A DNA stretch of 42,081 nt from Propionivibrio sp. (GTDB lineage: Bacteria > Pseudomonadota > Gammaproteobacteria > Burkholderiales > Rhodocyclaceae), in contig NZ_JAPUVO010000106.1 in assembly GCF_029255185.1 (NCBI RefSeq), positions 1 to 42,081 on the forward strand, in the 5' to 3' direction. Of the stretch, positions 3,026 to 18,281 are shown piece by piece; position 1 is the first letter of the stretch, and every line of letters begins with the position of its first letter. The position numbers and the translations under genes were made by a program. Under the pieces are notes generated by a model, which was given only the letters and a program-made list of their open reading frames with translations, was not told where the DNA came from and did no database searches.

Positions 3026-4468
3026 ATGTCGGAAACTCTGTCAACATATAACTACAAGGTAGTGCGGCAATTTGCCGTGATGACCGTTGTTTGGGGCATC
3101 GTCGGGATGCTGGTCGGCGTGATCATCGCTGCCCAACTGGTCTGGCCCGAGTTGAATTTCGGGCCGTGGCTTTCCTACGGTCGTTTGCGTCCGCTGCACA
3201 CCAATGCGGTGATTTTCGCCTTTGGCGGCTGTGCGTTGTTCGCAACCTCCTATTACGTTGTTCAGCGCACCAGCCATGCCCGTTTGTTTGCTGGCGGCCT
3301 GGCGGCCTTCACCTTCTGGGGTTGGCAACTGGTGATCCTGCTGGCAGCGCTGTCCCTGCCCCTGGGTTTTACCACCGGCAAGGAATACGCCGAGCTGGAG
3401 TGGCCGATCGACATCCTGATCACCGTCGTCTGGGTGTCATACGCCATTGTCTTCTTTGGCACCATCGTCAAGCGCAAGGTCAGTCATATTTACGTCGCCA
3501 ACTGGTTCTTCGGCTCCATGATCCTGACCGTGGCTGTATTGCACCTGGTCAATAGCGCCGAGATTCCGGTCTTTGCCGCCGGCATCCTGACGCCCAAGTC
3601 CTATTCGGCCTATGCGGGTGTGCAGGATGCGATGATTCAGTGGTGGTATGGTCACAACGCGGTCGGCTTCTTCCTGACCGCGGGTTTCCTCGGCATCATG
3701 TACTACTTTGTCCCGAAGCAGGCCGGTCGTCCGATTTATTCGTACCGTCTGTCGGTGGTGCACTTCTGGGCGCTGATCTTTACCTATATGTGGGCCGGTC
3801 CGCATCACCTGCACTACACCGCGCTGCCCGACTGGACGCAATCGGTCGGCATGCTCTTCTCGCTGATTCTGCTGGCGCCGTCCTGGGGTGGCATGATCAA
3901 CGGCATCATGACCTTGTCAGGCGCCTGGCATAAGTTGCGCGATGATCCGATCCTGAAGTTCCTGATTACCTCGCTGTCTTTTTACGGCATGTCGACTTTC
4001 GAAGGCCCGATGATGTCGATCAAGACGGTGAATGCGTTATCGCACTATACCGATTGGACGATAGGCCACGTGCACTCCGGTGCGCTGGGCTGGGTGGCTA
4101 TGGTGACGATCGGTTCCCTGTACTACCTGCTGCCACGCCTGTACGGCAAACCCGAAATGCATAGCATCAAGCTGATGACTGTCCACTTCTGGGTGGCGAC
4201 CATCGGCATCGTGCTCTATATCGCTTCGATGTGGATTTCCGGCGTTATGCAGGGTCTGATGTGGCGCTCGGGTAATGCCGACGGCACGTTAGCTTACAGT
4301 TTTGTTGAAACGGTCAAGGCGACCTATCCATTCTATGCAATCCGTTTGGTGGGTGGCCTGCTCTTCCTGTCCGGCATGCTGATCATGGCCTACAACATGT
4401 TCAAGACAATCGCTGGCGGCAGTACAGAAGATGCTCCCGTGCTGGTTCCGGCCGGTCAACACGCCTAA
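3026..4468 (+). CDS. ccoN: cbb3-type cytochrome c oxidase subunit I CcoN
   Basis: This is the catalytic heme-copper subunit, reducing oxygen at the heme b3-CuB centre in the inner membrane. The 480-residue protein is strongly hydrophobic and begins [17 protein letters not shown]. Expected ligands are visible: a low-spin heme histidine in LHTNAVIF (H58), the CuB histidine in [10 protein letters not shown] (H210), the HH pair in [13 protein letters not shown] (H260/H261), and the HVHSG motif (H348/H350). An ATG at 3014 is also in frame, but GAGGTGG sits just upstream of 3026, and the family N-terminus matches the 3026 start. The length is typical of proteobacterial CcoN. It is followed after 18 bases by ccoO, with GGGAGG before that start. 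Confidence 0.97.
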
Positions 4469-4486
4469 CAGGGAGGCTACAATAAA

Positions 4487-5101
4487 ATGAAACTTACGCA
4501 TGATTCAATAGAACGCAACGTTGGTCTGCTGATCATCCTGATTGTGCTGGTAATCAGTGTTGGCGGCCTGCTTGAGATCGTTCCCCAGTTTTTCCAGAAA
4601 TCAACTACCACGCCGGTCGAGGGTCTGAAGCCCTACGACCCGGTACGCCTGTCGGGGCGCGACATCTATATCCGCGAAGGCTGCTACAACTGCCACTCGC
4701 AGATGATCCGTCCGTTCCGCGCCGAAACCGAGCGCTATGGCCACTATTCGGTGGCCGGCGAGTTCGTTTATGACCACCCGTTCCAGTGGGGTTCCAAGCG
4801 CACGGGGCCGGACCTGCATCGGGTCGGCGGCCGGTATTCGGACGAGTGGCATCGCGCGCACCTGATCAATCCGCGGGATGTCGTTCCCGAATCCAATATG
4901 CCGGCTTACGCCTTCCTTGACAAGACTGCGGTCAATGCCTCCGTCATCGGCGCAAAAATGAGCGCCCTGCGTAGGGTCGGTGTGCCTTACAGCGACGCCG
5001 AGATTGCCGGGGCCAGCAAGCTGCTTGAAGGCAAAACCGAACTGGAAGTTCTGATCGCCTATCTGCAGGGGATGGGGATCGAACTGAAAGGCGCCAAGTA
5101 A
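4487..5101 (+). CDS. ccoO: cbb3-type cytochrome c oxidase subunit II, mono-heme cytochrome c CcoO
   Basis: This 204-residue membrane-anchored cytochrome c passes electrons from CcoP to CcoN. One N-terminal transmembrane helix (about residues 13-31) is followed by a periplasmic domain with one heme-binding motif CYNCH (C66, C69, H70). M138 in the SNMPAYAF segment is the likely sixth heme ligand. The sequence [17 protein letters not shown] is a strong family signature. It lies between ccoN and ccoQ with only four intergenic bases on the ccoQ side, so it is part of one transcript. Confidence 0.97.
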
Positions 5102-5105
5102 AACC

Positions 5106-5300
5106 ATGGATATCAACGAGCTACGTTCTGTCATGACGGTGGTCTCCCTGCTGACTTTTCTGGGTATCGTGTGGTGGGCTTACGGCATGAAAGGCAACAA
5201 AAAACGATTCGATGAAGCGGCCAACTTGCCGTTTGCAGATGAGGGAGCAGATCGAACCGAGCTCGGTATGTCGCGCAACGAACAAAGGAAAACATCATGA
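5106..5300 (+). CDS. ccoQ: cbb3-type cytochrome c oxidase subunit CcoQ
   Basis: This 64-residue protein has one membrane helix (about residues 8-27, ending GIVWWAYGMKGNKKRFDEAA). That layout and the following charged segment are typical of CcoQ, the small subunit that stabilises the cbb3 complex. It starts four bases after ccoO, and its stop overlaps the ccoP ATG in an ATGA arrangement (5297-5300). Identification rests on size, topology, the conserved FDEAANLPF segment and position. Confidence 0.9.
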   Translation: MDINELRSVMTVVSLLTFLGIVWWAYGMKGNKKRFDEAANLPFADEGADRTELGMSRNEQRKTS

Positions 5301-6229
5301 GCGATTTTGTAAATGAGTTTTGGAACTGGTATGTCATCGTAATTGTTCTGGCCAGCATTCTGGCGTGCGCCGTCTTTCTCTGGTCGCAAAGCATTCACCA
5401 CCGGGGGAAGGCAGAGACGACGGATACCACCGGTCATGTATGGGACGAAGATCTTGAGGAGTTCAACAATCCCTTGCCAAAATGGTGGAGTTGGCTGTTT
5501 TACCTGACGGTTGTTTTTGCGCTGGTTTATGGCATTTTGTATCCGACATTCGGTCGTTTTCAGGGCCTGTTTGCTTGGTCTTCAGCCGGTGAGTACAAGA
5601 AGGAAGTCGAAACCGTCGATGCCCAGGTCAAGCCGCTTTTCGACAAGTATCTGAAGATGGACCTGCAGGCCGTCGCGGCTGACCGGGAGGCTATGGAAAT
5701 GGGGGGCCGTCTGTTCCAGACCTACTGCATCCAGTGTCATGGCACGACGGGACAAGGGGCAATGGACAAGGGCTTCCCGAACCTCACCGACAAAGATTGG
5801 CAGTGGGGTGGTGAACCGGCTCAGATCGTGGAAACGATTACCAATGGTCGCATGGGAATGATGCCGCCCTATGGCGGGAATCCCGATGCCATCGGTGGTG
5901 AAGCCGGCGCCAGGGAAGTGGCCAACTACGTCCGCTCGCTCTCTGGCCTGACCCACGACAGTGCGCTTGCCGCCAAGGGAAAAACGAAGTTCGAGACTGT
6001 TTGCTTTGCCTGTCATGGTCAGGATGGCAAGGGGATGCAGGCGGTCGGCGCCCCCAATCTGACGGACAAGGTCTGGCTGTACGGGAGTTCCGAGGCAAAA
6101 ATCGTCGAAGGAATCACCAAGGGGCGCGTCAACCAGATGCCGGCGTGGAAAGAATTCCTTGGCGAAGCCAAGATTCACCTGCTCTCCGCTTATGTGCTCA
6201 ATCTGAGCGGTGGCGGCGAGAAGAAGTAG
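5297..6229 (+). CDS. ccoP: cbb3-type cytochrome c oxidase subunit III, di-heme cytochrome c CcoP
   Basis: This 310-residue subunit receives electrons from soluble cytochromes. Two transmembrane helices (about 11-30 and 65-84) are linked by the FNNPLPKWW segment diagnostic of CcoP/FixP. Two cytochrome c domains follow, with heme sites CIQCH (C144, C147, H148) and CFACH (C236, C239, H240). Methionine ligands are probably in GMMPPYGG and in NQMPAW. The gene overlaps ccoQ by four bases and is followed by a strong intrinsic terminator, so ccoNOQP looks like a complete transcription unit. Confidence 0.97.
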   Translation: MSDFVNEFWNWYVIVIVLASILACAVFLWSQSIHHRGKAETTDTTGHVWDEDLEEFNNPLPKWWSWLFYLTVVFALVYGILYPTFGRFQGLFAWSSAGEYKKEVETVDAQVKPLFDKYLKMDLQAVAADREAMEMGGRLFQTYCIQCHGTTGQGAMDKGFPNLTDKDWQWGGEPAQIVETITNGRMGMMPPYGGNPDAIGGEAGAREVANYVRSLSGLTHDSALAAKGKTKFETVCFACHGQDGKGMQAVGAPNLTDKVWLYGSSEAKIVEGITKGRVNQMPAWKEFLGEAKIHLLSAYVLNLSGGGEKK

Positions 6230-8816: not shown

Positions 8817-10808
8817 TCAAAAATACAAGCCGCGCATGACCTGCGCAAAAGCGATCTGATCTGCCGATGGGTGTTGGAGCGCAACAGACTCCTTGTTTTG
8901 ACCGGCAGCAATTGAGTCGGGGAACATATTGAAGCTGGTATTCATGACGATTTGCGCTACCTTCGGCGTCAGTGAATGCAGCAGCGCGCCAAAAATACCC
9001 AGCCGGGTGGCAATGCGAACCGGTTTGCGGATGATGGCATCAATCACGAGAACGGCGGCTTCTTCCGGCGTTAGCGTTGGCACCTGCTCGTAGAGTTTTG
9101 TCGGCGAGATCATCGGGGTTTTGACCAGTGGCATGTTGATCGTCGTGAAGTCAATATGACGGTCAGCGAATTCCGAAGCCGCGCAACGAGTCCAGGCATC
9201 CATCGCCGCCTTTGAGGCGACATAGGCCGAGAAGCGTGGCGCATTGGTCAGGACGCCAATCGAAGAAATGTTGACCACGTGCCCCTTCTGTTTTGCAAGC
9301 ATCGCGGGGAGCAAGCCCATGGTCAGACGCAGTGCGCCAAAGTAATTGACCTCCATGGTGCGTTCGTAATCGTGGAAACGATCGAACGAGTTCTCGACGC
9401 CGCGGCGTATGGAACGACCGGCATTGTTGATCAGGATATCGACGCCGCCATACTGCTCGTTCATGAGCTTGACGAGGGCATCGCATTGCTCCTTCGCGGC
9501 GATGTCCACCACGTGGGTGATCAGCGTCAGACCTGCCGCTGCGAACTCAAGGCGGGTTTCGTCAAGCTGTTTGGCATCACGGGCGATAGTCACAGCGATG
9601 GCGCCGGCTTCGGCAATCTTGCGGATCGTGGCCTTTCCGATGCCAGAGGAACCTCCGGTGAGCAGCACAACCTTGCCGGCGACCTGGCCACGCAGGGTGT
9701 GGTCAATGAACAGATCGGGATCAAGATGGCGCTCCCAGTAATCCCACAGGCGCCAGGCGTAGGTATCGAGTGGCGGAACGGCGATGTCGGTGCCTTTGAG
9801 TACGCGCAGAGTCTCGCGGCAATCAAAACGGGTCGGGTAATTGACGAACTCGAAAATGCTGTCGGGGAGTCCGAGATCTTTCATTATCGCGTTACGGATA
9901 CGGCGAACCGGGGTCAGGGCGAACAGCGCCTTGCGGATGTGACGGGGAATGAAGCCAAAGATCGCCGCATTGATGCGCATGGTCATTTGCGGCGCGTGGG
10001 CGGCGCGGGCAAAACTGTTGAGCAGATCGCCAACCCGCATGGGGCTCGGGTCTGTCAGGTGAAAGCACTGACCGTCCTCATTTTTAAGGTGCGCAATGTA
10101 ATCCATCGCAGAAACTACAAAGTCCACCGGAACAACATTGATACGTCCGCCCTCAATGCCGATGGTCGGCATCCAGCTTGGCACAAGCTTACGGATCTTC
10201 TGGATGAGTTTGAAGAAGTAGTACGGACCATCGATCTTGTCCATCTCACCGGTACGCGAGTCGCCGACGACAATGGCCGGGCGGTAGATGCGCCACGGCA
10301 CACGGCACTCCTTGCGCACAATGGCTTCTGAGTCATGTTTGGTGCGGAAGTAGGGATTCTCGAGATGCTCGGCCTCCTCGAACATGTCTTCGCGAAAGAG
10401 TCCCTCAAATAGGCCAGCCGAGGCAATCGAGCTGACCAGGTGAAAATGTTTTACAGCAATCGTTTCGGCAAGATTGAGGGTGTTGCGCGTGCCATCGACA
10501 TTGGCGCGCTGCTGATCTTCAGCGCTGGCCTTGAGGTCGTAAATTGCGGCGAGGTGGAAAAAATGGGTGATCTTTCCTTTAAGCTTGCGCAGGTCTGTTT
10601 TTGAAACGCCCAGATGCGGCAGGGTCAGGTCACCGACGACAGGAACGACACGGCTTGGGTCGACGCCCCAATACTCGTGGTACTCGCTGATGCGCGGCAA
10701 CTCAAGGGCGCGGAGCAGAATGTATACGACGCTGTCGGGCCGTGCCAGAAGTTTGGCAACGAGGCGTTTGCCGATAAAACCGGTGGCACCAGTTACGAAA
10801 TAGTTCAT
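8817..10808 (-). CDS. Two-domain fatty acyl-CoA reductase (alcohol-forming; Maqu_2220-like SDR fusion)
   Basis: This 663-residue protein fuses two Rossmann-fold reductases. The N-terminal extended-SDR half has GATGFIG at 7-13 and the YFRTK active-site pair (Y153, K157), and resembles thioester-reductase domains. The C-terminal classical SDR half has TGGSSGIG at 384-391, NNAG at 461-464, and the S515/S516, Y529, K533 catalytic set. From memory, its whole length and segments such as DGPYYFFK, PTIGIEGGR and SSIGVLTNAPRFSAYV closely match the Marinobacter enzyme Maqu_2220, which reduces acyl-CoA through the aldehyde to the fatty alcohol. The likely product is fatty alcohol for wax esters or lipids. 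The start is supported by AGGAGG five bases before the ATG. Substrate chain length is unknown. Confidence 0.85.
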   Translation of the reverse strand: MNYFVTGATGFIGKRLVAKLLARPDSVVYILLRALELPRISEYHEYWGVDPSRVVPVVGDLTLPHLGVSKTDLRKLKGKITHFFHLAAIYDLKASAEDQQRANVDGTRNTLNLAETIAVKHFHLVSSIASAGLFEGLFREDMFEEAEHLENPYFRTKHDSEAIVRKECRVPWRIYRPAIVVGDSRTGEMDKIDGPYYFFKLIQKIRKLVPSWMPTIGIEGGRINVVPVDFVVSAMDYIAHLKNEDGQCFHLTDPSPMRVGDLLNSFARAAHAPQMTMRINAAIFGFIPRHIRKALFALTPVRRIRNAIMKDLGLPDSIFEFVNYPTRFDCRETLRVLKGTDIAVPPLDTYAWRLWDYWERHLDPDLFIDHTLRGQVAGKVVLLTGGSSGIGKATIRKIAEAGAIAVTIARDAKQLDETRLEFAAAGLTLITHVVDIAAKEQCDALVKLMNEQYGGVDILINNAGRSIRRGVENSFDRFHDYERTMEVNYFGALRLTMGLLPAMLAKQKGHVVNISSIGVLTNAPRFSAYVASKAAMDAWTRCAASEFADRHIDFTTINMPLVKTPMISPTKLYEQVPTLTPEEAAVLVIDAIIRKPVRIATRLGIFGALLHSLTPKVAQIVMNTSFNMFPDSIAAGQNKESVALQHPSADQIAFAQVMRGLYF

Positions 10809-11000
10809 TCACGCCTCCTCGGCAAACGTGTGCGGCTAACGTTGAAATCACCGGCGCGCGCGGCTTCACAGAGTAACTGCTACCTGAAATATTCGATTGA
10901 CCGGGTGCGGACTACATCACTCGGTAGTTGTTTCGCCATCGACATTTCAAAAATGGTAATTCTGAAGTCGTCCATTGACAGACCACGAAAGGGAAAATCC

Positions 11001-11234: not shown

Positions 11235-13352
11235 CTAACAACGCTCCCAAATGCTCACTTCCGAGATTGTGTGCTGAAATTTCCGCCGGGTTTCACGAAT
11301 CACGAAGGGTACCGACAAAGGGCCGCGCAGCAGGCAAAAGTGCTTGCCGAGAATGGCCTTGAGTCCATCGAAGGTGGTAAAACTCTCGCCGTCCTTTTTG
11401 AAACCGCCGACCCAGGCTTCACGTTTGGTGTGTTCCGCCAGCCAGGTGTAGGGCGAGGCAATCAACAGCAAGCCACCCGGCTTGAGCCGTTGGTGCACCG
11501 CCGCGAGGAATTTCCCCGGGTTGTACAGGCGGTCAATCAGATTGGCCGCCAGAATGAGGTCGTAATCGGAGAAGACCGGCTTGAGATTGCAGGCATCGCC
11601 CTGGAAAAACTCGACCCGGTTGGCGACCTGGTCGAGCCCGAGTTCGGCTAGCGTCCGCTCCTTGTAAGTGACGAGCTCGCCCTCGTCGACCAGGGTATAG
11701 CGCAGCCTGCCCTGGTCCGCAAGTTGCGCGCCCAGACCAATGAAACGGGCGGAAAAATCGATCCCGGTGACCTGCCCGAAATGCCGCGCCAGTTCAAAGC
11801 TGGCGCGTCCCGTGGCGCAGCCCAGATCGAGGGCTTTTGCTGCCGGCCTGTCGCCCATCGCGTCAATCGCCAACTGGGCCAGCGCACGCGGAAAATTCGG
11901 CACATCGAAGTACGTATCGCCGTAGTGGAACTCAGCGTACTCGGATACCAACCGATCGGTCTCATAATGCGACGCCTGAGCGGTAGCCGGGACGCTGGAG
12001 ACGATATAGCGGAATCCGGCGTGCTGGAAGAAATGCCGGCGAAAGGCGTAACGCGACGAGGGTGACGCCTCGTTACCGCAGGCGATCCACGATCCGCCCT
12101 TGATCAGGTTATGGCGCCCATCGAAGGTGGGGGTCGTAAAATCGTCGTAGACCGGATGGACCTGAAAACCGGCGAAGGGATAGATTGGCGTCTCGGTCCA
12201 CTGCCAGACGTTGCCGATCACGTCAAACAGCGGGCCATGCGCAAACTCGGTGACCGGGCACGATGACGCGTAATGGTCAAGCTGGATGTTCGCCGTGGCG
12301 GCACCTTCAGCGATAAGAGCGGTGTCCTGGGTGATTCCGGCGAATTGGCGCAGCGCCTGCCATTCGTCTTCGCTCGGCAGACGCACTGCCGCGCCGCTCA
12401 CGCGCGCCTTCCACTGGCAGAACGCCCTGGCCTCGTGGCAGTTGGTTTCGACCGGCCAGTTCCAGGGCATAGCAACTTCTTCGAGCATCAGGCGCAAACG
12501 CCAGTGCACACCGTCCCGGACCCAGAAGCTTGGATGTTCGGCTCGCGCAAAAATCTTCCAGCTCCAAGCTTCGTCGGTCCATAGCGAATCGTCGGCATAG
12601 CCACCAGCCTCGACGAATGCCAGATACTCCTGATTGGAGACCAGATAACGGCTGGCCTGAAAAGCGGCAGTGGACACCTCATGGCTGCCGTATTCGTTGT
12701 CCCAGCCATAGACCGGATCGCTATGCATTCGACCGAGCCGCAATGTTGCCGGCGGAATGTCCACCAGTTCGTTTGACGGCGCCGTCCCAGCCTCCCGGCA
12801 AGGCTCCCACGCCGGGTGTGGCGCAACATACTTGAGCTGGTGCTGACGAATGAGGACGGATGAGGTTTCAAGATGGATGCGCTCGTGCTCGATGCCCATC
12901 AAAATAACCCACCAGGGATGTTCCCAGCCGATCGGCAGGATCAGCGGCAAGTTCCGGATCAACTGCTCGACGGTGACCCGCACGGCCTTGCGATAGGCTT
13001 TTACCGCGTCCACTCCTGGCCAGTCATAGCGTCCTTCGCCAAGGTCATCCCAGCTCATTTCATCGACCCCGACGGCAAATATCGATTCCAGTTCAGGATT
13101 GATGCGTTTATCGATCAGTCCAGCCAACAGCAGCTTGTTGATGAAAAACGTCGCGGTGTGACCAAAGTAAAAAATCAGCGGGTGGCGCAGCGCGATTGGC
13201 TTGCTGAAATAAGCTTCAGCGCAGGTCAACACCTCAAAAAGCTGTTCGTAGCGGTCAAATGTGGCGTGAAAATAGGCGAGAATCTCCGCACGTTTTTGCT
13301 CGACATTGACGCCGGTCAGCAAGGGCGATCTTGGAAAAATTGGACGTGCCAT
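11235..13352 (-). CDS. ovoA: 5-histidylcysteine sulfoxide synthase / mercaptohistidine methyltransferase OvoA
   Basis: This 705-residue trifunctional enzyme belongs to ovothiol biosynthesis. It joins cysteine to the histidine ring with a non-heme iron centre and, through its C-terminal domain, methylates the imidazole. The DinB-like N-terminal domain supplies the iron-binding histidines: H65 in FYFGHTATF, and H156/H160 in GIEHERIH. A formylglycine-generating-enzyme-like domain spans about 200-455 (GNVWQWTETP, IKGGSW, FRRHFFQHAGFRY). A class I SAM methyltransferase begins near 500, with motif I DLGCATG at 509-515. The length and three-domain order match OvoA rather than EgtB, which lacks the methyltransferase. 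The 13353-13416 leader separates it from the restriction-gene stub. The sulfoxide lyase OvoB is not evident beside it. Confidence 0.93.
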   Translation of the reverse strand: MARPIFPRSPLLTGVNVEQKRAEILAYFHATFDRYEQLFEVLTCAEAYFSKPIALRHPLIFYFGHTATFFINKLLLAGLIDKRINPELESIFAVGVDEMSWDDLGEGRYDWPGVDAVKAYRKAVRVTVEQLIRNLPLILPIGWEHPWWVILMGIEHERIHLETSSVLIRQHQLKYVAPHPAWEPCREAGTAPSNELVDIPPATLRLGRMHSDPVYGWDNEYGSHEVSTAAFQASRYLVSNQEYLAFVEAGGYADDSLWTDEAWSWKIFARAEHPSFWVRDGVHWRLRLMLEEVAMPWNWPVETNCHEARAFCQWKARVSGAAVRLPSEDEWQALRQFAGITQDTALIAEGAATANIQLDHYASSCPVTEFAHGPLFDVIGNVWQWTETPIYPFAGFQVHPVYDDFTTPTFDGRHNLIKGGSWIACGNEASPSSRYAFRRHFFQHAGFRYIVSSVPATAQASHYETDRLVSEYAEFHYGDTYFDVPNFPRALAQLAIDAMGDRPAAKALDLGCATGRASFELARHFGQVTGIDFSARFIGLGAQLADQGRLRYTLVDEGELVTYKERTLAELGLDQVANRVEFFQGDACNLKPVFSDYDLILAANLIDRLYNPGKFLAAVHQRLKPGGLLLIASPYTWLAEHTKREAWVGGFKKDGESFTTFDGLKAILGKHFCLLRGPLSVPFVIRETRRKFQHTISEVSIWERC

Positions 13353-13416
13353 GGGAAATCCGGCCTTCAGCAGTGGTTCAGGATATCCTGATTGACCTGC
13401 ATTTTAATCGCTCGAA

Positions 13417-13623
13417 TCAAACTGCGCAGTAATAGACGCCGACCGAAGAACATTGAAACAGAGCATCCTGCATCGCCTTCAATTCTTCAGCGGATCGTGC
13501 TTTCGGATCGCGCAGCGCAGGCACTTCATCAACCGCCCGATGCAGACGACGTAAGCTTTCGGCTTGTGGTTCGCGCAAGCTTAAACGGCTACTAATCGAG
13601 TGAACGATGTTTTCCAGACTCAT
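13417..13623 (-). pseudogene. N-terminal stub of a type III-like restriction helicase (Res subunit)
   Basis: A 68-codon frame begins MSLENIVHSISSRLSLREPQ and continues ESLRRLHRAVDEVP. This is the characteristic start of DEAD/DEAH-helicase Res proteins of type III-like restriction systems, which normally run to about 900 residues. Similarity holds to about residue 57 (MQDALFQ), just before the helicase core would begin. The frame then reads through 11 unrelated codons to TGA. No Walker A, DEAD box or nuclease motif follows, and ovoA starts 64 bases on. Its ATG overlaps the stop of the DUF1016 gene (ATGA at 13620-13623), so the original operon coupling survives. The identification is from family memory and should be confirmed by alignment. 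Confidence 0.75.
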
Positions 13624-14786
13624 TCCAGAGCTTTCTTCTTGCGGGCCGACCGTGCAGCCGGTTTGCGCGATCCGGTGACCGCTTCCACTGGCGCCAAATA
13701 CCGGAGCTCACGCCTCATCTCGCTTTCCAACTCTTCAACGGTCGGCAAATAAAGCTGGTAGCGGCTGGTGAAAATGTTGCGTTCTTGCTGATCGCCCAAC
13801 GTGTACCTCACCACCGCATCGTTCTTGTCCGGGCAAAGGATCAATCCCAGGGTCGGGTTGTCGCCTTCGGTGCGCCGTTCGCGGTCGTAGTAAGTCACGT
13901 AAAACTGAATCTGGCCCAGATCGGCGTGCGTTAGCTTGCCCACTTTCAGGTCGATCAGCACAAAGCATTTCAACACCGTGTGATAAAAAACCAGATCGAT
14001 GTAAAAGTGGTCGCCGTCGAGCGTGATGCGCTCCTGCCGGGAAACAAAGGCAAAGCCCTTGCCCAGTTCCAGCAAGAAGGTTTGTAGATTGTCGATGAGC
14101 GCCTGCTCAAGCTTCGACTCCACCAGGCGCGGCGATGCGGGCAGGTCAAGAAACTCCAGCACCACCGGGTCTTTCAGCGCGTCGATGGGCTGCGTGATTT
14201 CCTGTCCTTGAACGGCTAGGCGCATCAGCCCTTTTTTGTCACGACTTTTCGCCAGCCGGTCGAATAGCAGACTGCCGATCTGGCGCTCCAGTTCCCGTGC
14301 GGACCACGCGTTACGCGCTGCCTCGATCTCATAGAAAGTGCGCGCTTCGTCACGGCTCACGCGCAGCAAATTGCGATAGTGCGTCCATGAAAGGTTCGAA
14401 TTCAGTTGGCCCGGCTTGCACGCTTCGCCCGGCATGGCTTCGTGAATGTCCAGTGCGTTCAGTGAAACGCTGGAATTCCGGGATTCGATCAACAGCGGAT
14501 AGGAAAGGTAGAAACTGCGGCAGTATTCCAATTGACGTACCGACCAGCCCTTCCCAAATTCCCGAAAAAGCCGCTCGGCAAGATCCGTCAGCAAGGCATC
14601 GCCATAACCCGCACGCCGCTTCCCCGCTTGCTCTTCCTCAACGATTTTCCGCCCGACCAGCCAATTCGCAATGACTTGTGTCGTGTTGACGGTACGGGCA
14701 ATGTTGCTGCGTGCCGCCTCCAGAATTTCACGTGCCCGCCCGTACAGCGCTGGCGCAGCAGGCACCGATGAATCGTTTTTTGCCAT
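13620..14786 (-). CDS. DUF1016 (YhcG-like) PD-(D/E)XK nuclease family protein
   Basis: This 388-residue protein has an N-terminal DUF1016_N helical domain (about 10-180, with GWSVRQLEYCRSFY and LSWTHYRNLLRV) and a C-terminal PD-(D/E)XK nuclease-like domain. The probable catalytic set is E227, D264 in FYIDLVFYH, and D279/K281 in LIDLKVGK, followed by GQIQFYVTYYD. The tail is rich in Lys, Arg and Ala. I chose the ATG at 14786 because AGGAGG lies seven bases before it. A TTG two codons upstream would leave only one base of spacing. The gene is intact and sits between stubs of mod and res genes, a position DUF1016 genes often take in type III-like restriction loci. Its precise role there is unknown. 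Confidence 0.85.
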   Translation of the reverse strand: MAKNDSSVPAAPALYGRAREILEAARSNIARTVNTTQVIANWLVGRKIVEEEQAGKRRAGYGDALLTDLAERLFREFGKGWSVRQLEYCRSFYLSYPLLIESRNSSVSLNALDIHEAMPGEACKPGQLNSNLSWTHYRNLLRVSRDEARTFYEIEAARNAWSARELERQIGSLLFDRLAKSRDKKGLMRLAVQGQEITQPIDALKDPVVLEFLDLPASPRLVESKLEQALIDNLQTFLLELGKGFAFVSRQERITLDGDHFYIDLVFYHTVLKCFVLIDLKVGKLTHADLGQIQFYVTYYDRERRTEGDNPTLGLILCPDKNDAVVRYTLGDQQERNIFTSRYQLYLPTVEELESEMRRELRYLAPVEAVTGSRKPAARSARKKKALE

Positions 14787-14843
14787 GCTCAATCCTCCTC
14801 ACAAAACAAACCGCCTTGCGCTGGATTCGCGGCACGAGACTTT

Positions 14844-14865
14844 CTCCCCTCGCACTCCAGGAGAG
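14844..14865. repeat. Small hairpin between mod stub and DUF1016 gene
   Basis: CTCCCCT (14844-14850) pairs with AGGAGAG (14859-14865) in a 7-bp stem with one G-T pair and an eight-base loop. It lies in the sequence that replaced the missing body of the methyltransferase gene and may be a copy of an intergenic repeat. No function can be assigned. Confidence 0.4.
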
Positions 14866-14892
14866 GTGTCGGGGGTGACAGTGCTCACCCAA

Positions 14893-14991
14893 CTAGCTTT
14901 TCTCAGAATCGCCCAACAAAATACGCGGCTCCAGCTTCGGACGCGCATCCTTGCCGATCCAGGTGAGTTCGAGTTTTTGTTTCTTGCTCAT
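14893..14991 (-). pseudogene. N-terminal stub of a type III-like DNA methyltransferase (Mod subunit)
   Basis: A 32-codon frame reads MSKKQKLELTWIGKDARPKL and ends EPRILLGDSEKS followed by TAG. This matches the conserved start of site-specific adenine methyltransferases of type III-like systems, where the serine is normally followed by Tyr-His and then the DPPY-bearing catalytic domain. Here the matching sequence stops exactly at the TAG, and the next 100 bases are unrelated and contain a hairpin. The frame starts 18 bases after the DUF262 stop, so gene order is preserved. It is too short for the usual gene-length cut-off. As a methyltransferase it is certainly non-functional. Confidence 0.75.
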
Positions 14992-15009
14992 GAAATTCTG
15001 TCGCCCGCC

Positions 15010-16725
15010 TTAACCGATTTGCGCGATACGCCAAACAGCCGTGGCTTGTGCCGCCATCCAGTTTTGGTGCGCGGCGATGCGCTCAGGTGTCCATTCGGCG
15101 TGATCGGTCGCCAGCCTGCGTGTGATGGCAAAGCCGCTTTGTTCGAATACGGGACGTTTGGCCGCGTAGCCTGTATTACCCAAGTCCTTGTTGGCGCCCG
15201 CCTGCATCAAGGTCATGTTGCCGAGGCGATAGGTCAAGGCATCGACCTCTTCGTCGGTGAATGCCTCCCAGCCGGTCTGGGGATTCTGCGGCAGGACATG
15301 TTCTATATTGAAGCTGTCGCTAGTGAAATTATGGTCTTGCGAGGACAAATGTTTTTCCAGCGCGCACAAGATGAAGCGAACTACGCGGTTGTTGCGTGAT
15401 TGCGTCGTACGGATGGTTTTCTCGGCAAAGGCGGAGCGGAATGCTGCGTCACTGGGGTAGATGCTTTGCATTGCAGCAAGCGCTGCGCCCAGATTCGCCA
15501 CTTCGCCTTTTGCGATGCGTTCTGCAACAGCGTTATAGGTTCTTTCCTGTTCGGCAGTGCTATAGCTACAAATGACATTGAAGCGCATTGAAATTACTAC
15601 GCAGGCCCGCATCAGTCCGGCAAAATCCGGCGTATCGAAGATGCGCTTGGCCGCTAACAGCAAAGGCAAGGGCTGACGAACATTGAAGGTGCGCAATGTA
15701 CTGGCGAACCCTTTGATCTCCTGCGGCCAATCAGAGGCTTCAGGTGAAGATAAAGCGAGGTAGGTATCGAGGTCTTCTTCCATGTCACGCAGGAGTTGGA
15801 AAACCATCTCGCGCGAATTGACCTGATTTCGGACGGTTTTGAACAGTTCGGCCTGGCGCGCAAAAGTACGGCGGCTATTCCAGTGGGCGCGCAGGAAATC
15901 CGGGAAACTTTCCGCCCCCAAACGTCCAACCATGGCCTCCCAGCGTTCTTCCAAATTGCGTAATTCGTGATCCTTGTCGTTTCCGCGATCGAGTACGGAA
16001 AACAAGTAGTTTTTCAGCAGGTCGGTTGCCGACAGCCGTACTCCGCGCGCATTCAAGGTTTCAAAGACCTTGTAGGCGTTCAGCTCATCCGTAACCGTGA
16101 TGACCGTAAAAAATAGTCGGTCGCTCATGTCCTCAACGAATTGAGCCAAGCGCATGCCCTCGGTGCCCGTACTCTTTTTCAGGAACTCTGTCACGCGCCG
16201 GTCAAACCACTCAAAAGCTTTCCGCAGCAGATGCTCGGACGCACGAAAACCGCGTTGGGGCAGATGACCCATCGGCACCATGAAATCCTGGTAATAGCTG
16301 TTGTTGTTGCGGTTCAGCGTCAGCTTGGGACGTGCGATCAGGGTTACCGGATCAAGATAGCCCACATAGGTCTGGCGAATTTGCTCCATTCGCCGCCCAT
16401 TGGCTTCGGAGTCGTTACCCGCGTCAATCAGCCGTTGCAGGTTTTTCAACACCGCAAGCACGATGATGCTGACGGTGGTCAGACGTTGCTGCCCATCGAT
16501 GACTTCAAAGGTTTTGTCGTCCGCAGATTGCAGGACAAGATAGCCCATATAGTGAGCTGGTTCGCCCCCCGACTGTAGCGTTCCCATCAAGTCCATCCAC
16601 AAGTCTTCCCATTCATCGTCAGTCCAACTGTAGTCACGCTGAAAACGGGGAATGCGGTATGTCAGCCCATTGCCAATGAGCTTGCGAAATGTATTGTTTT
16701 CAGTCTTGAAGTTCGTTGCGGCCAT
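15010..16725 (-). CDS. DUF262/DUF1524 (GmrSD-like) protein
   Basis: This 571-residue protein has the ParB-like DUF262 domain at its N-terminus (IPRFQRDYSW at 25-34, IDGQQRLTT at 76-84, then FETLNARGVRLSATDLLKN). A C-terminal DUF1524 HNH-type nuclease domain carries FNIEHVLPQ with H476 and a GNMTLMQAGANKDLGN segment. The same domain pair makes up GmrSD, a type IV nuclease against modified phage DNA. In such proteins the DUF262 part binds or hydrolyses nucleotide and the HNH part cuts DNA. The start at 16725 is preferred over a GTG one codon upstream because AGGAGG sits five bases before the ATG. It is the first gene of an operon with the mod stub, DUF1016 and res stub. Confidence 0.88.
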   Translation of the reverse strand: MAATNFKTENNTFRKLIGNGLTYRIPRFQRDYSWTDDEWEDLWMDLMGTLQSGGEPAHYMGYLVLQSADDKTFEVIDGQQRLTTVSIIVLAVLKNLQRLIDAGNDSEANGRRMEQIRQTYVGYLDPVTLIARPKLTLNRNNNSYYQDFMVPMGHLPQRGFRASEHLLRKAFEWFDRRVTEFLKKSTGTEGMRLAQFVEDMSDRLFFTVITVTDELNAYKVFETLNARGVRLSATDLLKNYLFSVLDRGNDKDHELRNLEERWEAMVGRLGAESFPDFLRAHWNSRRTFARQAELFKTVRNQVNSREMVFQLLRDMEEDLDTYLALSSPEASDWPQEIKGFASTLRTFNVRQPLPLLLAAKRIFDTPDFAGLMRACVVISMRFNVICSYSTAEQERTYNAVAERIAKGEVANLGAALAAMQSIYPSDAAFRSAFAEKTIRTTQSRNNRVVRFILCALEKHLSSQDHNFTSDSFNIEHVLPQNPQTGWEAFTDEEVDALTYRLGNMTLMQAGANKDLGNTGYAAKRPVFEQSGFAITRRLATDHAEWTPERIAAHQNWMAAQATAVWRIAQIG

Positions 16726-17060
16726 CACAGCCTCCTTTGAATACGCATGCTCATCTTATGTACTGCGCTGCGGACTGTAGGTCATTGCTTGCTTGTTTTT
16801 TCTGCATTGCAGATAGTACTACGGCATTGACGACGCCGACTTGCCCAGTGGCTTGGTGACGTGCAGAAAATGCTGAACACATGTTGGCCTTGCCCTTAAT
16901 CGTGCCAACCGGCATTGTGATGCGTATTGGGACAGCAATCTGAAGCACGCAGCATGAGCTGCTGCTACATCAGTTTGAATCGCACCTCTCGAACGGGGTA
17001 AGCTGCTCACGCATTCTCGCCCGAATCGTAGCAACCGTGGTTTCCAGAGAAAATTGGCCT
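16726..17060. other. Gene-free divergent intergenic region
   Basis: These 335 bases separate the DUF262 gene (leftward) from the chaN-like gene (rightward) and should contain both promoters. Short open frames on the minus strand do not resemble any family I know. I see two small palindromes, TCTGCATTGCAGA near 16800 and GCAGC-ATGA-GCTGC near 16950, and no convincing promoter hexamers. Confidence 0.5.
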
Positions 17061-18281
17061 ATGACGATCGAAACCTTTCGCCGCTGCGCATTGCCCTCGT
17101 GGTGCGTCCTGCTGGCCCTTGCCGTCGGGTGTTCATCAACCGTGGCTGCGGGTGATACGGGCAGCCCTGGTTGCAGCGAACCCGGACGCTGGCTGACGCT
17201 TGCGGGAAGCTTGCCGCGCCCGCTGGCTGGCAGCAAGGTTATCGGCGCGGCCTTGCTTAATGATATTGTCCTGCTCGGCGAAGAACACGACAACGAGGAC
17301 CATCATCGCTGGCAACTTCAGGTACTCGCGGCGTTGTACGGGCAACGCCAGGATCTGGTGATCGGCCTGGAAATGTTTCCCCGGCGCATCCAATCGGTTC
17401 TTGATTGCTGGGTCCAGGGTCGGCTGAGTCCCAAGGAGTTTCTCACCCAATCGGAGTGGGACAGCGTCTGGGGGCAGCCGATCATGCTCTACATGCCACT
17501 CTTCGATTTCGCCCGCATTAACCGCATCCCCATGCTGGCGCTCAACATTGACCAAAAATTAAGCCGTGCAATCTCCGAAAAAGGCTGGGACGCCGTCCCC
17601 GTAAGCGAGCGCGAAGGACTCAGCCGTGCCGCACCGCCACCGCCCGCGTATCGTGATTTCCTGTTCGAGATTTATCGTCAGCATCCGGTCAAGGGCAGCG
17701 CAGGCCCGCGCCGTCCGGCGAAATCCGATCCGGAGTTCAAGAACTTTGTCGATGCTCAACTGGCCTGGGATCGCGCCATGGCCGAGGCGTTGGCGCAGCG
17801 GCTCGGTGCCGGCGTCGACCGGCCACTGCTGGTCGGTATCATCGGCAGCGGCCATCTACGTTTTGGCTACGGCGTACCACACCAATTGCGTGACCTCGGC
17901 ATTGGCCAACTGAGCACACTGCTGCCGGTTACGGCCGGTGACGATTGCCGGGAGTTCCCGCCCGCTTTCGCCGATGCCGTCTTTGCCATCGCCCAGCAGC
18001 CAGTACCGCCTCCTGATCCGCCAAGACTGGGCGTCCAGCTCGACGAGAGTAGCGCTGGCGGCGGCGTGCGCATCGTCGCCGTAACTGCCGGCAGCCTGGC
18101 TGAGCAAAGCGGACTGAAAGTCGGCGACCAGTTGCTCGAAGTGGCCGGACGCCCTGTGCAAAAAAATGCCTCGGTCATTGCTGCGGTCCGCCGGCAAGCG
18201 CCCGGTACCTGGTTGCCGCTGCGCCTACGGCGCGGTGACGCAAGCCTCGACCTGGTCGTGCGTTTCCCGCCTGCTCCGTAA
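17061..18281 (+). CDS. ChaN-family (haem-binding-like) protein with C-terminal PDZ domain
   Basis: This exported protein of about 406 residues has an N-terminal hydrophobic signal ending near LAVGCSS, possibly a lipobox with an imperfect -3 residue. The central domain (about 60-290) is of the ChaN/Tiki-like superfamily (PF04187), shown by LLGEEHDNEDHHRWQ, GLEMFPRRIQ and GSGHLRFGYGVP. ChaN proteins bind haem, but a protease-like activity is known in Tiki relatives. A PDZ domain occupies the last 85 residues (LGVQLDESSAGGGVRIV, SGLKVGDQLLEV). A GTG start at 17037 is possible, but the ATG at 17061 places the signal peptide properly. It ends four bases before the M1 peptidase ATG, so the two are likely cotranslated. 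Confidence 0.82.
   Translation: MTIETFRRCALPSWCVLLALAVGCSSTVAAGDTGSPGCSEPGRWLTLAGSLPRPLAGSKVIGAALLNDIVLLGEEHDNEDHHRWQLQVLAALYGQRQDLVIGLEMFPRRIQSVLDCWVQGRLSPKEFLTQSEWDSVWGQPIMLYMPLFDFARINRIPMLALNIDQKLSRAISEKGWDAVPVSEREGLSRAAPPPPAYRDFLFEIYRQHPVKGSAGPRRPAKSDPEFKNFVDAQLAWDRAMAEALAQRLGAGVDRPLLVGIIGSGHLRFGYGVPHQLRDLGIGQLSTLLPVTAGDDCREFPPAFADAVFAIAQQPVPPPDPPRLGVQLDESSAGGGVRIVAVTAGSLAEQSGLKVGDQLLEVAGRPVQKNASVIAAVRRQAPGTWLPLRLRRGDASLDLVVRFPPAP

Follow-up and report, generated by a model that had tools for sequence, protein, structure and literature searches.

Organization of the Locus

The DNA analyzed here ("the window") is a stretch of 42,081 nucleotides from Propionivibrio sp. (contig NZ_JAPUVO010000106.1, positions 1–42,081). 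At 13417–16725, on the minus strand, it contains a DUF262/DUF1524 gene and a DUF1016 gene set among remnants of mod and res, the DNA methyltransferase and helicase-nuclease genes of a type III-like restriction-modification system (Table 1). A preliminary description of this block had listed a DUF262 gene, an 18-base gap, a mod stub, a DUF1016 gene, an ATGA overlap between the DUF1016 stop and the res start, and a res stub. All of these elements were found where they had been placed, and the genes behind their open reading frames (ORFs) were identified by profile searches or by close relatives.

Table 1. Features of the block and its flanks in the window.
Feature	Position	Strand	Description
DUF262/DUF1524 (GmrSD-type) gene	15010..16725	-	571 amino acids (aa) from ATG, intact; Pfam, PADLOC, motifs, invariant columns
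mod 5′ remnant (type III DNA methyltransferase)	14893..14991	-	32 codons, then TAG; profile and alignments
mod deletion junction	14863..14893	-	31 bases unaligned to locus L224; ≈1.6 kb of mod gone
mod 3′ remnant	14789..14862	-	Last ≈24 codons, ending ...QGGLFCEED-stop; directly before DUF1016
DUF1016 (YhcG-type PD-(D/E)XK) gene	13620..14786	-	388 aa from ATG, intact; Pfam, PADLOC, invariant columns
res 5′ remnant (type III helicase-nuclease)	13459..13623	-	≈54 codons; open frame extends to 13417, beyond res homology
Native ovoA 5′ flank	13353..13445	.	Adjoins res remnant; match to congener G324 (L159)
ovoA	11235-13352	-	NCBIfam ovoA_Nterm and ovoA_Cterm
ChaN-like/PDZ gene	17037-18281	+	Other flank of the block

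The mod stub matches positions 1–32 of the PADLOC MTase_III profile (E = 1.2e-10) and aligns both with the mod of an intact array in another genome (locus L224) and with a second mod in the same genome, on contig C134. As an addition to the earlier account, mod was found to have kept its 3′ end as well, so that the deletion is internal. Of the ORF that begins at the res start (13623–13417), only the first ≈54–56 codons are derived from res; they are 84% identical over 56 residues to the intact res of the same genome (E = 2.1e-23). Neither stub match was due to chance, with E values in the family surveys of 7.7e-12 for mod and 3.0e-23 for res. The res homology ends at 13459–13463 by two alignments, and the sequence from 13250 to 13445, which covers the 5′ flank and the beginning of ovoA, has a 74% match in the congener that reaches to 13445. 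The body of res was thus lost up to the native flank, and no res 3′ remnant was found in the window.

All that is left of both genes are ends that contain no catalytic motif. The type III Mod motifs (DPPY and F-x-G-x-G) are missing together with the middle of mod, and the res remnant has neither the helicase motifs nor the C-terminal nuclease of type III Res; in the intact res, GVGKT is at residue 79, beyond the window's remnant. Compared to a type III restriction-modification system, the window thus retains both gene starts but lacks the catalytic parts of both mod and res, whereas intact relatives carry the expected motifs.

Comparison with an Intact Array

The whole form of the array was found in genome G528 (L224), from the same order but another family, where a DinD-like gene, the DUF262 gene, mod (592 aa), the DUF1016 gene, an ORF of ≈60 aa and res (928 aa) lie on one contig. 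Its mod and res are whole, with the mod motifs DPPY and F-x-G-x-G at residues 76 and 336. It differs from the window in the DinD-like gene (with a Bro-N domain) ahead of DUF262 and in the ≈60-aa ORF before res, which the window lacks. The DUF262 proteins of the two loci are 94% identical and the DUF1016 proteins 83%. At the DNA level, the window aligns with this array in three blocks. One spans the DUF262 gene and ≈100 bases at the start of mod (85.6% identity), the next the final ≈74 bases of mod and most of DUF1016 (83.5%), and the third the initial 161 bases of res (83.2%). Relative to L224, the window has lost 1604 bases of mod (L224 10017–11620), where the joint holds 31 bases without a match, and everything after L224 13220 in res, 2626 bases to the stop at 15846.

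The two losses are therefore separate, one inside mod and the other from inside res to the native flank, with DUF1016 standing between the two missing stretches. This agrees with the preliminary description, which had read the block as a hollowed-out type III-like mod–DUF1016–res array with DUF262 in front whose mod and res bodies were lost separately. The genome is in 141 contigs, and the deletions could in principle be assembly artifacts of a fragmented genome. We consider this highly improbable: both junctions lie well inside the 42-kb contig, and comparable breakages were seen in two genomes that are listed as single contigs (G018 and G148).

The GC-rich sequence that follows the mod stub was considered as a possible REP-like element, and this was rejected. 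No other clear copy was found in the same genome (best E = 0.144), and the alignment with L224 showed most of the sequence to be the 3′ end of mod itself, leaving 31 bases unexplained.

A Related Array in the Same Genome

Intact mod and res genes of the same system elsewhere in the genome had been named beforehand as a finding that would speak against the account given of the block. A same-family pair is indeed present on contig C134, in an array with all genes open: a DinD-like gene, an ATPase-like gene (by reading of its sequence), mod (560 aa), a zeta-toxin-like gene and res (910 aa). The mod carries DPPY and FAGSGTT, and the res carries GVGKT, DESH and PDF...ETK. The window's stubs are 88% (mod, over 81 bases) and 79% (res, over 165 bases) identical to this pair at the DNA level. 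This speaks against the account only in part, since the two systems need not share a target site: the part of the window's mod that sets the target was deleted.

The C134 pair might still serve the surviving genes of the window in trans. The pair is intact, its res is close to that of the window over the first 56 residues (84% identity, as above), and a similar layout occurs in genome G024, which has DUF262 alone and pieces of mod and res on another contig. On the other side, the cargo gene of C134 is zeta-toxin-like, not DUF1016, and the loss of the target domain precludes a comparison of targets. Overall, we regard service in trans as distinctly unlikely.

The DUF262/DUF1524 and DUF1016 Proteins

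The frames of both surviving genes are whole and their motifs intact, in line with the earlier reading that both are still open. The DUF262/DUF1524 protein matches the Pfam families GmrSD_N (E = 1.5e-36) and GmrSD_C (E = 1.1e-27), and it carries DGQQR in DUF262 and EHxxP in DUF1524, both within a single open frame, which fits the GmrSD-type DUF262/DUF1524 family. Like other GmrSD-type proteins it thus has both domains in one chain. At the 247 columns invariant in eight relatives it showed no deviations. The best PADLOC label was HEC-06 (PDLC04154; E = 1.5e-235, 781 bits), with a match from position 1 to 567 of the 569 in the profile. The closest solved chain by sequence was the DUF262 protein 9jfl (4.4e-26), while the chains of SspE matched weakly (best 3.4e-5).

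HEC-06 is the Hma-embedded candidate, a GmrSD-like single-gene defense, of Payne et al. (PMC12988326, PMC11411939; the preprint is in the references of PMC13356809). It is among the candidates with demonstrated antiviral activity (PMC12988326) and is said to work independently, as BrxU does (PMC11411939). GmrSD-family enzymes are described as NTP-stimulated and modification-dependent, and BrxU as independent of its BREX neighbor (PMC12707154). SspE, another DUF262–DUF1524 protein, apparently arrests growth without its modification partner (PMC12707154). The window's protein resembles HEC-06 in its full-length profile match and in being encoded inside another defense operon; the host operon is Hma for HEC-06 and a type III-like mod–res array here, where the activity is predicted.

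The DUF1016 protein matches YhcG_C (E = 4.3e-56) and DUF1016_N (E = 7.9e-36), and therefore has both expected domains, including PD-(D/E)XK. Its PADLOC label was PDC-S02 (E = 2.6e-135), a DUF1016 single-gene candidate. Two deviations were found at the 176 columns invariant in six relatives. No relative was found among PDB sequences at E values up to 1, nor in a search for related loci in a collection of genome contigs. A ribosome-binding-site-like GAGGAGG precedes the ATG; with this and the open frame, the protein may still be made.

Distribution of the Two Genes

The preliminary description had proposed that DUF262 and DUF1016 survive as an independent defense pair, and had suggested tabulating whether the two occur together without mod and res. 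DUF262 was searched in 150 genomes of the family, where nine had a match at E 1e-60, and in 399 genomes of the order, where eight had a match at E 1e-120 (own genome included in both counts). The genomic context was taken for all eight other family genomes and for six of the seven other order genomes (G488 was left out). The resulting tally comprises 13 DUF262 loci at an identity of at least 57%, including the window and G187, which was found via its mod. Three loci with DUF262 at 38–41% identity (G102, G002, G008) were left out of the tally; these had no mod or DUF1016 match, and short, weak res matches were seen in G002 only.

Four of the 13 loci are in mod–res arrays: the window, G018 (with mod and DUF1016 broken), G187 (without DUF1016) and G528 (whole). 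One array, at L172, reads DUF262–mod–Fic–res in long open frames. The other nine loci had no same-family mod, res or DUF1016 in the flanks seen. DUF262 was whole without these genes in its flanks in G024, G076, G483 and G675, and whole also in G527, where the contig ends ≈190 bases past the gene; it was cut by a contig end in G063 and broken in G025, G562 and G703.

DUF1016 matched 25 of the 150 family genomes at E 1e-60 (own included), in 35 places. Among the 11 of the 34 other places that were viewed, the closest three lay between mod and res, the remaining eight had no same-family mod–res match beyond one weak mod match at 30%, and none of the 11 regions had a DUF262 match. Another two close copies were met through the mod survey (L179) and the DUF262 search (L224). 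All five DUF1016 copies seen at about 71% identity or above (L049, L050, L051, L179, L224) were located between mod and res, although the res frame is broken in L051.

The window is thus alone among the 13 DUF262 loci in joining the two genes without a working mod and res, and no recurrent adjacency was seen. The window keeps the two frames open with their motifs intact, and two-gene GmrSD-type systems do exist, for example TgvAB, although DUF262 is present in both partners there (PMC11411939). But mod separates the two genes in L224, and other cargo occupies the DUF1016 position in other arrays. An independent two-nuclease pair is therefore very unlikely; the two genes would adjoin because both flanked the deleted mod, not as a unit.

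Selection on the Surviving Genes

Ratios of non-synonymous to synonymous change (dN/dS) were polarized against G528 by an outgroup, omitting codons in which the outgroup differed from both sequences. For DUF262 (outgroup G187 or G018), the window branch had 79–80 synonymous and 5 non-synonymous changes, a ratio of 0.018–0.019, compared to 0.03–0.04 on the G528 branch. For DUF1016 (outgroup G149 or G212) the ratios were 0.06–0.07 on the window branch and 0.07–0.10 on the G528 branch. The dead res stub (outgroup C134 or G171) gave 0.07–0.08 for the window, a value based on no more than 2 non-synonymous and 8–9 synonymous changes along that branch. The 32 codons of the mod stub were too short, with contradictory window-branch values of 0.00 and 0.37 from two outgroups. 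Even the pieces of the broken DUF262 in G025 still gave 0.01–0.05 when compared with the window.

The dN/dS check that had been suggested thus gave low values on DUF262 and DUF1016, but similarly low ones on the dead res stub, so that it does not discriminate, and a low ratio was rejected as proof of retention. That a dead stub still appears constrained suggests that the divergence mostly arose before the deletion, and the ratio is silent on later selection. Selection on the stubs themselves is conceivable, but nothing else points there. More generally, the locus serves as a warning that dN/dS cannot support retention when a loss is this recent.

These values bear on the possibility that both survivors are dead weight, neither of them working after the loss of mod and res and both open only because the loss is recent. 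The closeness of the ratios for the res stub and DUF1016 speaks for a recent loss, and relatives of DUF262 are broken in three genomes, as listed above. Four others keep DUF262 whole with no mod or res in the flanks (in G024 the pieces lie on another contig), and proteins of the HEC-06 and BrxU kinds are reported to act alone (PMC12988326, PMC11411939). We therefore consider it rather unlikely that both survivors are dead weight.

Interpretation of the Locus

We consider it likely that the block is a DUF262–mod–DUF1016–res defense array that decayed recently, and that its DUF262 protein probably remains functional by itself. The loss within mod and that running from within res to the chromosomal flank removed the methylation and the ATP-dependent cutting of the type III-like system. 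DUF262, the first gene of the operon, stayed whole; its product would be a nuclease that depends on NTP and cleaves modified phage DNA without need of the mod product. By analogy with HEC-06 and BrxU, we lean towards such an activity being retained, and the gene is a promising candidate for a single-gene defense that has stayed functional. The DUF1016 nuclease may likewise still be made; that it does something without mod and res is possible, if somewhat doubtful. The preliminary description had held that loss of a methyltransferase would normally require loss of cutting. This applies to Res; if the DUF262 protein is modification-dependent, however, its own survival after the loss of mod needs no special explanation.

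Several points weigh against this interpretation. The HEC-06 assignment is made from profile scores, in which the label Orf5 is close and poorly separated (760 vs. 781 bits), and the HEC-06 proteins tested for defense differ from that of the window. DUF262 ends 4 (L172) or 15 (L224) bases before a whole mod, an arrangement that a functional link would fit too. Genome G024, with its solo DUF262, has same-family mod and res pieces on another contig (L206), so that a solo DUF262 does not mean a system-free genome (G483 and G675 were not searched). Finally, selection on the survivors after the deletions could not be shown.

The locus itself represents the ordinary decay of a known kind of array. 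Its value is as a clean case in which the core of a restriction array was lost and the embedded cargo nucleases are still open, with the whole form and several independent breakages at hand for comparison. It also allows a direct test of whether embedded GmrSD-like genes work alone, as has been claimed.

Decay of Related Arrays

A search of 395 genomes of the family with the N-terminal 60 residues of the C134 mod (E 1e-6) gave 50 matches in 47 genomes, and all 50 places were examined. They were classed by open-frame length and context, without checking the C-termini of all the long frames. On this basis, 31 mod starts had an open frame of at least 540 aa ending inside the contig and were not visibly broken, and five ran into a contig end (G195, G367, G264, G326, G336). 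Ten were N-terminal stubs: the window, G298, G360, G148, G117, G221, G318, G362, and the second copies in G056 and G168. Four were otherwise broken or short, by a deletion into DUF1016 (G018), an insertion (G361), a frameshift (G237) or a short frame of 410 aa (G346). Broken or short forms thus made up 14 of the 45 mod starts uncut by contig ends. When the retrieved loci were searched more finely by profile, one stub each was added in G318 and G362. The corresponding res survey had matches in 46 of the 395 family genomes, not fully classified. The preliminary description would have been contradicted by relatives in which both stubs recur and the surviving genes are broken; no relative with these two stubs was found in either survey, and the age of the deletions is therefore not bracketed within the genus.

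The breakages differ from one another. In G018 (L069), a deletion runs from mod into DUF1016, and DUF262 and res are kept. In G168 (L145), mod and res are kept and the middle of DUF1016 is deleted (≈residues 235–334, covering the nuclease motifs of the window's protein). Mod residue ≈52 is joined to res residue ≈853 in G360 (L140), and mod residue ≈39 to res residue ≈131 in G148 (L141). Such arrays often decay, in a different way each time. The L140 fusion (8987–8742) of a mod start with a res end forms a single open frame of 81 aa, a one-step collapse of the whole array.

Insertions in mod were also observed. In three genomes, GC-rich, palindromic, repeat-like sequences are inserted at one and the same place in mod, right behind SYHA (≈codon 34): L195 (near 8080), L192 (near 1540) and L144 (near 8440). 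The mod frame is still open despite the insertion in L192 and L195. L152 has insertions of 1.3–1.6 kb in both mod (9548–10826) and res (3694–5301) that are unrelated at the DNA level; an open frame of 393 codons in the mod insertion looks transposase-like.

The mod–res Interval and mod-start Stubs

Both mod and res could be placed in 30 of the 34 loci tried. The interval between them held DUF1016, other ORFs or nothing; the other ORFs scanned there were zeta-toxin-like (L016), Fic (L172), RhuM-family (L171, L187) and PDDEXK_3 (L181). The interval is thus a variable cargo site, with DUF1016 as one of its occupants.

Short mod starts also occur beside other genes. In G056 (L049 1638–1859), a mod stub of 73 codons overlaps a SIR2-domain gene at its start, and that gene is followed by a whole mod. 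In G362 (L147 2193–2303), the same stub, shorter by ≈110 bases, lies before the same SIR2-domain gene, which is 96% identical in DNA over the 2236 bases present before the contig ends; the further loss of ≈110 bases fits a neutral scar. In G168, an AAA ATPase gene and then one more ORF stand between a stub and a whole mod. In G318, a stub lies on either side of two short genes, which we take to be MNT/HEPN-like. No description of mod-start stubs was recognized in a limited literature search (truncated mod/res, accessory genes, remnants, type III arrays).

These cases suggest that cassettes turn over at joints marked by mod starts, and short mod starts beside defense genes can mark past arrays. 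We offer as a speculation, unlikely as it stands, that recombination recurs at the conserved 5′ end of mod, a joint beside which defense cassettes enter and leave, with the short stubs as scars, and that the window's cargo outlived its mod–res vehicle. With equally low confidence, the mod–res array would be a vehicle that spreads single-gene defenses and is later discarded, and the stubs beside the SIR2, AAA ATPase and MNT/HEPN-like genes (G056, G168, G318, G362) might, at the same low likelihood, reflect the same process. The ends of the stubs vary; a site-specific process is therefore not indicated, and plain deletion after duplication suffices.

Flanking Sequences

In scans for promoters and terminators, sites were no more numerous than in shuffled sequence. 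A plasmid search gave partial matches only, none covering more than 80% of the query in one place. The chaN-like neighbor on the right had no match in the 12 ovoA loci tested, which reach at most ≈1.5 kb past ovoA and therefore do not define the empty site. The ovoA neighbor is a full-length ovoA-type gene (5-histidylcysteine sulfoxide synthase with a methyltransferase domain), and ovoA is present in 12 of the 27 other members of the genus searched (E 1e-100).

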